From: Pseudomonas putida
Lineage (GTDB): Bacteria; Pseudomonadota; Gammaproteobacteria; Pseudomonadales; Pseudomonadaceae
Assembly: GCF_016406145.1 (NCBI RefSeq)
Contig: NZ_CP066306.1
Span: 5,270,001 to 5,334,000 of the forward strand
Length of the DNA: 64,000 nucleotides
Direction of reading: 5' to 3'
A program made the translations under genes and the position numbers. The first letter of the stretch is position 1; each line of letters opens with the position of its first letter. The notes beneath the pieces are model-generated. The model ran no database searches. It saw only the letters and a program-made list of their open reading frames with translations, and had not been told where the DNA came from. Shown one piece after another: positions 43,342 through 46,086 of the stretch.

Positions 43342-43418
43342 GGGCCTATAGCTCAGTTGGTTAGAGCAGAGGACTCATAATCCTTTGGTCCACGGTTCGA
43401 GTCCGTGTGGGCCCACCA
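43342..43418 (+). tRNA. tRNA with CAU anticodon (elongator Met, or Ile2 read after lysidine modification)
   Basis: A 77-nt cloverleaf with encoded CCA: acceptor GGGCCTA / TGGGCCC (one T-G pair), D-stem GCTC/GAGC, anticodon stem GAGGA/TCCTT around CTCATAA, T-arm CACGG-TTCGAGT-CCGTG, discriminator A. The anticodon is CAT. The homologous locus in P. aeruginosa is annotated Met. However, C4-G69 and C5-G68 in the acceptor stem are the TilS-favoured pairs of tRNA-Ile2, so Ile(CAU) is a real alternative. Confidence 0.93.
43395..43410 (+). repeat. Left copy of 16-bp direct repeat (attL-like) in the tRNA 3' half
   Basis: GTTCGAGTCCGTGTGG within the T-arm and acceptor of the tRNA, repeated exactly at 44873-44888. 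The two copies bracket a 1.48-kb segment with the fic gene. Confidence 0.7.
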
Positions 43419-43423
43419 CCTTC

Positions 43424-43448
43424 AAAACCGCGCATTGCGCGGTTTTTT
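43424..43448 (+). terminator. Intrinsic terminator after the tRNA
   Basis: AAAACCGCGC-ATT-GCGCGGTTTT plus further T residues, 5 bp past the tRNA CCA end. Perfect 10-bp stem. The remaining gap to the Fic operators (43449-43594) shows no gene; it is AT-richer than its surroundings. Confidence 0.85.
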
Positions 43449-43594
43449 CATGTCTGCAGGAAAACAACCGACCCTGCGGCCTAAAAGTAAAAATCCCCAA
43501 GATCGTCGCTTGCCTGCAGAGGAAGAACGCCTCCCGCCGCTGACAACACCACCACAAAAGATGCTTATATTCTGAGTTCCTGACACTAGTGGAG

Positions 43595-43625
43595 TTGGAC
43601 AGGGAGCCGAATAGCCGGCATTATC
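43595..43625 (+). promoter_or_regulatory. Candidate fic promoter
   Basis: TTGGAC (43595-43600), 18-bp spacer, CATTAT (43619-43624). The -10 overlaps the first operator palindrome, so a bound repressor would block it. Moderate consensus match. Confidence 0.4.
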
Positions 43626-43665
43626 GGCTCACCAAATGAGCCGAATAAGCTCGTTAATCGGCTCA
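43603..43665. promoter_or_regulatory. Two 29-bp palindromic operators upstream of fic
   Basis: Four copies of TGAGCCGA(A/T)TAA in alternating orientation: pair 1 GGAGCCGAATAG / TTATCGGCTCA (43603-43631), pair 2 TGAGCCGAATAA / TTAATCGGCTCA (43637-43665). Centre-to-centre spacing is 34 bp. The second pair ends 17 bp before the fic ATG. The arrangement suggests cooperative binding by a dimeric regulator, possibly Fic's own winged-helix domain. Confidence 0.7.
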
Positions 43666-43682
43666 AAAAAGAGCACCCCTCC

Positions 43683-44822
43683 ATGAATGAACCGCTCTGG
43701 ATCTGGCAGCACCCCAACTGGGCGCACTTTAGCTGGCAAGCCGATGCACTTGCCCCGCTGCTGCGCGCTTGCAGCCAGGCTCAGGGTCGCTTGCTCGGGA
43801 TGCTGGGAGCTGTAAGTAGTGACACGCAAGTGCAGAGCAGCCTGGATGCCCTACTGCAGAATATCGTCACTTCATCCGCCATCGAGTGTGAGCAGCTGAA
43901 TGTCGGCTCGGTGCGCTCGTCGCTGGCGCGGCGCCTGGGGCTGAACGAGGAAGGTCGCACCACCTCTCGATCCGAAGGCCTGGCGCAACTGCTGCTCGAT
44001 GCCACCCGCGCCTATCAGCAGCCGCTCGTTCTGCAGCGGCTGTTCGCCTGGCATGCTTGGCTGTTCCCCAGCGATGACCACTTGATGGCCCGCCCGCTAC
44101 GCGTCGGCATGCTGCGCGGCGAAGAGCCCATGCAGGTAGTTTCCGGTCGTCTCGAGCGCCCTACCGTACATTTCGAGGCCCCACCTCGCGCCGGGCTGGA
44201 AGCGCAACTGGACGACTTCTTTGCCTGGTTCCAGAGCAGCCGCAGCGATGCGAGCCTCGACCCATTCTTGCGTGCCGGCATTGCGCACTTCTGGTTCGTT
44301 ACCCTGCACCCATTCGATGACGGCAATGGTCGTCTTACACGCGCCATCACCGACCTGGCTTTGGCTCAGGGCGAACAGCACGCTATCCGCTTTTACGCCA
44401 TGTCGGCTAGCATCCTCGACGATCGTGCCGGCTATTACCGCATCCTGGAGGCCAGCCAGAAGGGCACGCTGGATATCACCGCCTGGCTGCAATGGTTCCT
44501 CGCAACGCTGCTCAAGAGTCTGGAGCAAGCCCTTGCTCGTATAGACCGCGTGCTGGCCAAGGCGCGCTTCTGGCAGGCTCACCGCAGCCAAGCTTTATCT
44601 GCCGAGCAGATCAAAGTGCTTAACCGCCTGCTCGATGGCGGCGAGAGAGGTTTCGAGAACGGCATCAGCGCCGCGCAATACCAGGCCGTGGCCAAGGTCT
44701 CGAAAGCCACCGCCACGCGCCACCTGAGCGATCTTGTCGAGAAGGGCTGCCTTGCCCGACTGCCCGGCGGCGGGCGCAGCACGCGCTACCAGCTACAGCA
44801 CCCGGAAAACGCTCAAGGCTGA
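43683..44822 (+). CDS. Fic-domain protein with N-terminal DUF4172 and C-terminal winged helix
   Basis: A 379-residue, probably cytoplasmic AMP-transferase-type Fic protein. The DUF4172 region opens WIWQHPNWAHFSWQ (about 6-90). The Fic core has the complete motif HPFDDGNGRLTR (209-220) with catalytic His209. The self-inhibitory motif, (S/T)xxxE(G/N) in the family, reads SSAIEC (64-69): Glu68 is kept but the last position is Cys. A winged-helix-like tail (about 310-375, ISAAQYQAVAKVSKATATRHLSDLVEKG) suggests DNA binding. No good ribosome site precedes the ATG. There is no cognate antitoxin or target next to it. It sits alone between a tRNA and a repeat of its 3' end, which indicates horizontal acquisition. 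The target is unknown. Confidence 0.85.
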   Translation: MNEPLWIWQHPNWAHFSWQADALAPLLRACSQAQGRLLGMLGAVSSDTQVQSSLDALLQNIVTSSAIECEQLNVGSVRSSLARRLGLNEEGRTTSRSEGLAQLLLDATRAYQQPLVLQRLFAWHAWLFPSDDHLMARPLRVGMLRGEEPMQVVSGRLERPTVHFEAPPRAGLEAQLDDFFAWFQSSRSDASLDPFLRAGIAHFWFVTLHPFDDGNGRLTRAITDLALAQGEQHAIRFYAMSASILDDRAGYYRILEASQKGTLDITAWLQWFLATLLKSLEQALARIDRVLAKARFWQAHRSQALSAEQIKVLNRLLDGGERGFENGISAAQYQAVAKVSKATATRHLSDLVEKGCLARLPGGGRSTRYQLQHPENAQG

Positions 44823-44872
44823 CCTCGCAGCGACAAAACAGCGCAACGCGACACGATCCTGCCATTACGCCA

Positions 44873-44888
44873 GTTCGAGTCCGTGTGG
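44873..44888 (+). repeat. Right copy of 16-bp direct repeat (attR-like)
   Basis: GTTCGAGTCCGTGTGG identical to 43395-43410 in the tRNA. The surrounding bases do not form a tRNA, so this is a fragment copy. A terminator follows 12 bp later, as one follows the intact tRNA. Confidence 0.7.
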
Positions 44889-44900
44889 ACATCCGATACA

Positions 44901-44928
44901 AGAAAGCCGCGCGATTGCGCGGCTTTCT
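44901..44928. terminator. Terminator after the right repeat
   Basis: AGAAAGCCGCGC-GATT-GCGCGGCTTTCT, perfect 12-bp stem. It could end fic transcription, or serve the convergent acetyltransferase gene on the other strand. Confidence 0.8.
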
Positions 44929-44960
44929 TCATTTTCAGGCTCTCAAGAATCCTGCCGTGT

Positions 44961-45500
44961 CTACATGTTCCGCTGGCGCGGGTTGTAGAAGGTGCTATCG
45001 GGAGGAATGTCCCGGGTCACAAGAGACATGGCCCCAATGACCACGTTGTTGCCGATGCTGATATGGTCAGCAACGATGCAGCTATTGGCACCGAGGCTGA
45101 CGTTCTCGCCTATGCACAGCGAGTAATGGTCCAGGCCAAGGGTCTTGATCCCGACCGAGCAATTCTGCCGTATGAAAAAGTTACGCCCGATGCTTGCGTG
45201 GCGGGTGATCACCACACCTGGCAGATGGGCGATACGAAGGCCGGGAGCTATTTGCGCGCCGATGTCGATGTCCACGGCGTACTTGAGGTTGAGCCGCTGC
45301 TGCATGCCGCGGGCATATCGCCTGCTCAGGCCGCCGCGACCATCGAGGTACTGCGCCAGGCGATAGGCGAAAAGAAAGCGCAGCTTGTTGTCCTTGCGCG
45401 CTCGACGCAGCACGTTGAAGAACAAGCTGATACGGCGTCCGGGCTTTTTCTTGTTGGAGACCTCCTGTCGCCAGCATTCCAGCAAGGTTTCGAAATTCAC
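44961..45500 (-). CDS. Serine acetyltransferase-like hexapeptide-repeat acyltransferase
   Basis: A 179-residue protein. A short helical N-terminus is followed by left-handed beta-helix repeats from about residue 75 (IDIGAQIAPGLRIAHLPGVVITRHASIGRNFFIRQNCSVG). It resembles the C-terminal half of CysE but lacks the full N-terminal domain of the 270-residue E. coli enzyme. The conserved His in IAHLPGVVI corresponds to the catalytic His of the family. Substrate is uncertain: serine, or a sugar or surface-polysaccharide acceptor. It stands alone, convergent with fic and divergent from the Lrp-type gene. Confidence 0.75.
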   Translation of the reverse strand: MNFETLLECWRQEVSNKKKPGRRISLFFNVLRRARKDNKLRFLFAYRLAQYLDGRGGLSRRYARGMQQRLNLKYAVDIDIGAQIAPGLRIAHLPGVVITRHASIGRNFFIRQNCSVGIKTLGLDHYSLCIGENVSLGANSCIVADHISIGNNVVIGAMSLVTRDIPPDSTFYNPRQRNM

Positions 45501-45624: not shown

Positions 45625-46086
45625 ATGTCGAATCCCCGCCAGATCGCCCTCGATGACATCGATCACCAACTGATCGCCCTGCTGCAGATCAATGCCCGCG
45701 AAAGCGTTGCCACCCTTGCCCGCCACCTGGGTATCGCTCGCACTACCGTCAACTCGCGCCTGGCGCGCCTGGAGAAGGGAAAAGTCATCACCGGATATGG
45801 CGTACGCCTGGGCCAGCGCCTGGCCGATGGTGGCTTGCAAGCCTATGTCGGGATCAAGGTGCAACCGCGCTCTGGCAAGGAGGTCGTGCGGCGCCTGGCT
45901 GCCATGGGGCAAGTGCAGCAATTGTGCGCGGTCAGCGGCGAGTTCGATTACGTAGCATGGCTGCGCAGCGATTCGCCAGAACAACTGGACCAGTTGCTGG
46001 ACCAGATTGGCAGCGTAGAAGGCGTGGAGAAGACCACCACCTCGATCATCCTCAGCAGCAAAGTGGACCGCGGCCAGCCCGTCTAA
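45625..46086 (+). CDS. Lrp/AsnC-family transcriptional regulator
   Basis: A 153-residue regulator with an N-terminal HTH (residues 7-60: DIDHQLIALLQINARESVATLARHLGIARTTVNSRLARLE) and a C-terminal ligand-binding RAM domain (about 70-145). It is in the same orientation as davBA and 190 bp upstream, so it is the obvious candidate to sense lysine or a related amino acid and control davBA. That link is inferred from position. Confidence 0.88.
   Translation: MSNPRQIALDDIDHQLIALLQINARESVATLARHLGIARTTVNSRLARLEKGKVITGYGVRLGQRLADGGLQAYVGIKVQPRSGKEVVRRLAAMGQVQQLCAVSGEFDYVAWLRSDSPEQLDQLLDQIGSVEGVEKTTTSIILSSKVDRGQPV

Follow-up and report, generated by a model that had tools for sequence, protein, structure and literature searches.

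How did a single fic gene come to stand between two copies of the end of a tRNA gene, without an integrase beside it? We addressed this for a locus in the window (the whole stretch of Pseudomonas putida DNA that was analysed, 64,000 nucleotides). A preliminary description had read the locus as the footprint of site-specific integration at a tRNA, being either what remains of an element or a minimal one that another integrase moves in trans. The footprint is supported by fic-less relatives, a partially copied tRNA end and a native-type terminator at the distal end. From sequence comparison, we consider it likely that the islet is what is left, in degenerate form and without an integrase, of a larger genomic island that targeted the tRNA, and that it belongs with the CIMEs (cis-mobilizable elements).

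The features are, in order:

43342..43418, + strand: tRNA, anticodon CAT (CAU), apparent integration target (ARAGORN: Met; Rfam tRNA, 72 bits)
43395..43410, + strand: proximal 16-bp repeat, within the tRNA T-arm and acceptor (exact match, genome count)
43424..43446, + strand: terminator-like hairpin behind the tRNA, of a type seen beside relatives' islands, putative incoming end (folding, comparison)
43604..43665, + strand: tandem pair of palindromes upstream of fic, candidate auto-operator, overlapping a promoter-like site at 43596-43624
43683..44822, + strand: fic, intact, 379 aa, DUF4172, Fic (HPFDDGNGR) and winged-helix-like C-terminus (Pfam, motif, 8CIL alignment)
44823..44872, + strand: spacer remnant, part of the sequence that separates fic and NERD in relatives, cut short by the distal repeat (comparison)
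44873..44888, + strand: distal 16-bp repeat, putative displaced native tRNA end (exact match, flank alignment)
44889..44894, + strand: decayed counterpart of GCCCACCA (alignment with fic-less sites)
44900..44929, + strand: native-type hairpin, similar to terminators at fic-less sites (folding, comparison)
44961..45500, - strand: hexapeptide acyltransferase gene, on the chromosomal side of the junction (Pfam, comparison)
45625..46086, + strand: AsnC-family regulator gene, anchoring the hotspot on its right (Pfam, comparison)

The repeat pair and its two sides

The CAU-anticodon tRNA at 43342-43418 presumably resembles tRNA-Ile2. Within it, GTTCGAGTCCGTGTGG at 43395-43410 recurs exactly and on the same strand at 44873-44888, and the two 16-mers bracket a segment of 1,478 bp. 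Identity between the copies stops at GTGTGG, and the distal one is a partial copy of the tRNA 3' end. The 16-bp duplication first described is exact at 44873-44888 as far as it goes; in place of the tRNA's final 8 bases (GCCCACCA), the distal side has ACATCC when aligned with a gap of 2 bp. The 16-bp core is exact at both ends and the distal CCA end is decayed.

A repeat of only 16 bp could be a chance match, and we rejected this reading as exceedingly improbable. No further match to GTTCGAGTCCGTGTGG was found within the window at up to two mismatches, compared to a mean of 0.09 matches in shuffled controls, in which two matches were reached in 0 of 100 shuffles. The 5.85-Mb genome has exactly two copies, both at the islet (the reversed-pattern control gave none), and the window's flanks can be aligned with fic-less sites. 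The terminator, the fic-less sites and the relationships of fic (below) all agree with insertion.

The only convincing gene between the repeats encodes the 379-aa Fic protein, in agreement with the preliminary description. There is no integrase between the repeats either, and none of the 19 matches to the tyrosine-integrase family in the genome (18 over the cut-off) is in the window.

A terminator had also been placed behind each repeat copy. A simple terminator scan listed neither hairpin, and both were revealed by folding: a strong hairpin with a T-rich stretch lies behind each repeat (-14.5 and -23.6 kcal/mol; for each, 0 of 200 shuffles were equally stable). The distal hairpin is like the terminators of relatives L087, L176, L179 and L184, and the hairpin behind the tRNA is like those at islands in L032, L065, L077 and L082. 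We infer that the distal end is native and the proximal end incoming, because integration at the 3' end of a tRNA leaves such a pattern; terminators do vary among fic-less sites.

Occupied and fic-less sites in relatives

Sites with and without fic were found in other genomes, the fic-less ones all outside the window's own species. We searched 398 genomes with the window's hexapeptide gene plus the start of the AsnC gene and found matches in 46, many of them only short pieces. Among the best 18 places outside the window and L174, three (L175, L176, L182) have a complete tRNA, a native-type terminator and the hexapeptide gene, and fic and the second repeat are absent from the stretches examined. 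The gap between tRNA and hexapeptide gene is ~65 bp in L175, the best fic-less relative, and 520-650 bp in L176 and L182. In L180, L181 and L189, too, the tRNA and hexapeptide gene are present and fic is absent, the terminators being different or the gaps longer, and L179 and L184 have partial tRNA copies followed by the native-type terminator. The joined flanks of the window align with fic-less sites across the repeat and the terminator, with the CCA end altered. The hexapeptide gene was considered as a member of the islet and ruled out, since it adjoins the tRNA in fic-less relatives too.

The tRNA lies between a GGDEF-EAL gene and AsnC-pqqF genes. We sampled the stretch downstream of it (5 to 20 kb each) in 34 other genomes of the genus (L031-L064). 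AsnC was present in 23 stretches and fic in four (L031, L032, L033, L049); fic is thus not universal at this place, whereas universal presence would have spoken against insertion. In L034 and L037, the tRNA and a terminator are followed by AsnC 132 and 337 bp on, with no fic, such that fic-less sites are known both with the window's downstream gene (the three above) and without it. A second same-strand copy of the tRNA end was present in seven of the 34 stretches, 1.85 to 16.3 kb off and mostly with other cargo; the one in L045 is decayed. As a separate observation, similarity to the window's tRNA ends in the T-arm in L054, L055 and L059, with an integrase-like open reading frame (ORF) next to it, perhaps another type of insertion.

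In many species, similar fic genes lie close to this tRNA end. We compiled 104 distinct fic genes (the best 80 of 333 confirmed loci, 32 further genome stretches, the four hotspot stretches and the window, with identical genes removed); these were picked by likeness to the window's fic and say nothing about fic-free islands. A copy of the tRNA end, mismatches allowed, was in the examined stretch at 61 of the 103 other loci, three fic loci having <1 kb of upstream sequence. The copy was upstream on the same strand at 55 of the 61, and within 600 bp at 33 of those 55. With the window included, linkage was found for 55 of 64 genes whose product was at least 76.5% identical to the window's Fic and for seven of 40 below that. 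The linkage label changed 11 times on the Fic tree, compared to 32.5 times in shuffles (0 of 500 as low), a measure of clustering only.

The relationships of fic conflict with those of the chromosome. The window's Fic shares 93% identity with its counterpart in L066 (Pseudomonas sp. 8AS), a distant species, compared to 86% for RpoD and 67% for the GGDEF-EAL protein. The nearest chromosome fetched was that of L097 (P. putida HAI-2), with 99% identity for AsnC and the amine oxidase, 91% for PqqF and 92% for the hexapeptide protein, and only 82% for Fic. When 102 Fic proteins were placed on a tree, the window's was one of 11 rows that form a set supported at 100/99, and L097 was outside it. No phage or plasmid carrier of the window's Fic clade was found in the two collections searched, because all 10 matching phage records (of 50,697) were <60% identical and, among the 915 matching plasmid records (of 72,556), 73 were at 60-80% and none above.

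The window and its relatives diverge just behind fic. In L066-L069 and L071, fic is followed by TGCCATTACGCCAGGTTTCGGTAC, which runs into a NERD gene. In the window, fic is followed by TGCCATTACGCCA and then the distal repeat, and similarity to these relatives stops just before the NERD gene. Other relatives, e.g., L070, L073, L074 and L077, have unrelated sequence after fic. A NERD gene is close behind fic at 29 of the 104 loci, 25 of which are tRNA-linked; those that follow fic are of a 256-aa class with NERD and topoisomerase zinc-ribbon domains (e.g., L066, L067, L068, L075 and L084). L196 (G085) has two differing fic-NERD copies ~8.8 kb apart, which would fit two separate acquisitions of the island.

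Origin and mobility of the islet

We favor the remnant model for several reasons: fic-less sites have the same downstream gene and the joined flanks align through repeat and terminator; the 16-mer occurs only twice genome-wide, and in L066-L069 and L071 the sequence reads on beyond the junction point to a NERD gene; the relationships of fic conflict with the chromosome (L066 versus L097); fic loci cluster at the tRNA end, and the window's gene has a dN/dS of 0.09-0.13; and the distal and proximal terminators are each like those of a different set of relatives. By comparison with relatives, a fic-NERD island, probably with more defence genes, would first have integrated site-specifically at the CAU tRNA's 3' end, bringing with it the tRNA end and terminator seen there today and pushing the native end downstream. 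A loss from the fic-NERD spacer rightward to the distal repeat would have followed; an integrase using a pseudo-att site or illegitimate joining could have made the junction, at which there is a 1-bp overlap at best. The distal end, then outside any tRNA, lost its CCA end, as comparison shows. What remains is a lone Fic enzyme, predicted to be an auto-repressing AMP-transferase.

Not every arrangement is explained by this model. At 11 loci, fic is directly before AsnC without a second repeat, and the repeat layout of L097 also counts against the model: a copy of the tRNA end and a terminator precede fic, no repeat lies behind it, and the hexapeptide gene follows. These loci speak for fic as a resident of the hotspot, swapped by homologous recombination between the flanks, with the distal repeat left over from another, vanished island. 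We regard this as distinctly unlikely for the window, where the native-type terminator is behind fic and not before it, the fic-type spacer reaches right up to the distal repeat, and the downstream gene is shared with fic-less sites.

We also considered that fic between att ends might be a minimal unit that still moves, with an integrase acting in trans or in cis with a neighboring element. Repeats flank fic on both sides at 14 loci including the window, spaced 1.5 to 15.7 kb. One of these, L084, is a second small unit without an integrase (att-fic-NERD-att, 2,460 bp), and integrases lie beside the same tRNA in two others, L111 and L080. The 18 over-cut-off tyrosine-integrase matches in the window's genome could, in principle, provide the function. 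However, this genome's closest homolog of the L111 integrase is only 42% identical and has one internal stop, the next being 28%; the distal end is decayed past the 16 bp; and the repeat has no further exact copy in the genome. Such a unit is therefore unlikely, and the islet is probably non-mobile here, its mobility being doubtful. Of the two origins first proposed, movement in trans is thus the less favored, and a remnant is favored because of the break-off before NERD, the decayed distal repeat and the internal stop in the kin of the L111 integrase. Separately, on contig C2 of G000, 80 kb long, four integrase-like matches score alike and have equally long ORFs (339 aa); a single mobile gene has probably been copied there.

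Island cargo, the Fic enzyme and known systems

Several islands with repeats on both sides of fic carry known defence systems. We surveyed 12 of the 14 double-repeat loci, with 69 ORFs of at least 110 aa. Forty were scanned with Pfam; the other 29 were 12 fic genes, eight NERD genes or pieces, seven further L080 ORFs and two others. Among the 40, integrases were confirmed by Pfam only in L111 (975-2066) and L080 (2295-3386). A home-made integrase motif was weak, missing both, and was set aside, and ORF clustering, blurred by shadow ORFs, served only for spotting the NERD cluster. PADLOC was applied to 18 proteins of the cargo and, besides these, to the window's Fic and a NERD protein. It identified the defence systems DRT3 (L067), SIR2-HerA (L075), Lamassu (L093) and retron I-C (L109), an Mrr-type type IV restriction protein in L066 (with Mrr also in L067 and L075 by Pfam), a weak methylase match in L111, and the candidate systems PDC-M60 (L085) and PDC-S60 (L098). 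Six of the 18 had no hit at 1e-5: the L066 PAAR protein, two L068 proteins, the L102 ATPase, the L109 RES protein and the L111 CHAT protein. Between tRNA and fic in L066 (8092-9336) and L068 (8032-9357), a gene for a PAAR-motif protein and then a small Ig-like-domain gene have a type VI secretion flavour.

Based on these comparisons, the CAU tRNA appears as a hotspot at which Pseudomonas species repeatedly carry similar fic genes with anti-virus genes. A broader reading is possible, if on the unlikely side: a genus-wide defence hotspot in which fic, often with NERD, stands as the first gene, a portable, auto-repressed AMP-transferase guardian that would outlive its island and integrase and be exchanged between species as an att-flanked cassette. 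In the openly licensed literature, we found neither the fic-NERD pair described nor this tRNA reported as a defence hotspot.

The window's Fic protein has the DUF4172 and Fic domains over the Pfam cut-offs and the motif HPFx(D/E)GNGR. The winged-helix model PF22168 scored 23.4 bits, below its cut-off of 27; the alignment to 8CIL (CbFic2; residues 6-372, 344.5 bits) spans the same C-terminal part. Class II Fic proteins have an N-terminal inhibitory motif of the form (S/T)xxxE(G/N). In the window it is SSAIEC (within TSSAIECE), with the E kept and the G replaced by C; TSSAIEGE was present in 98 of 104 Fic proteins and the C in the window alone. The dN/dS of the window's fic was measured against five relatives (0.04-0.10 among those relatives), and as judged from the sequences the enzyme is under purifying selection. 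Both palindrome half-motifs precede all 103 fic genes tested, tRNA-linked or unlinked, compared to 21 of 2080 random stretches, indicating that the palindromes go with the gene rather than with the island. Judged by its family and its company, the protein probably transfers AMP, uses the palindromes to shut down its own promoter and serves as an anti-phage or toxin-type effector.

SoFic, an anti-phage Fic protein (PMC12249575, excerpts), has the same class II architecture. The PADLOC SoFic model matched the window's Fic at 126.8 bits. The NCBIfam model (NF046030) gave 54.4 bits compared to a cut-off of 550, and the solved SoFic chains match the window's Fic at ~43 bits; because this cut-off was missed, SoFic-like defence is an analogy only. 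The window's Fic has the domain order and Fic motif of CbFic2, whose activity is DNA-stimulated, and its palindromes recall the related CccR, which binds a palindrome and represses itself (PMC10628234, excerpts). It differs from the CbFic2 type in the SSAIEC motif, and its DNA binding and AMPylation are predicted activities.

The site is like the P. aeruginosa core defence hotspots cDHS1 (tRNA-Pro, with ihfA and merR) and cDHS2 (ssrA), places between core genes, flanked by non-coding RNA, that collect changing defence systems (excerpts of PMC10250203). It differs in its CAU tRNA and its GGDEF-EAL and AsnC-pqqF flanks, which are not the cDHS placement. The comparison points to a defence hotspot at the CAU tRNA, with the fic-NERD pair recurring in front of known defence systems.

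CIMEs are cis-mobilizable elements that decay and accrete in tandem at tRNA genes (PMC5704250, excerpts). The islet differs from them in being one gene, in the decay of its distal end outside the 16 bp and in that its conjugative parent is putative; longer fic islands are at the same tRNA, two with an integrase (L111, L080), and none was identified as an ICE or IME. The islet is like CIMEs in having att-like repeats at the 3' end of a tRNA where other islands insert, and in containing no integrase or transfer genes, fic being the only convincing ORF between its repeats. Dissected with fic-less sites and longer relatives, it suggests that decay can reduce a defence island targeted to a tRNA to a single gene.
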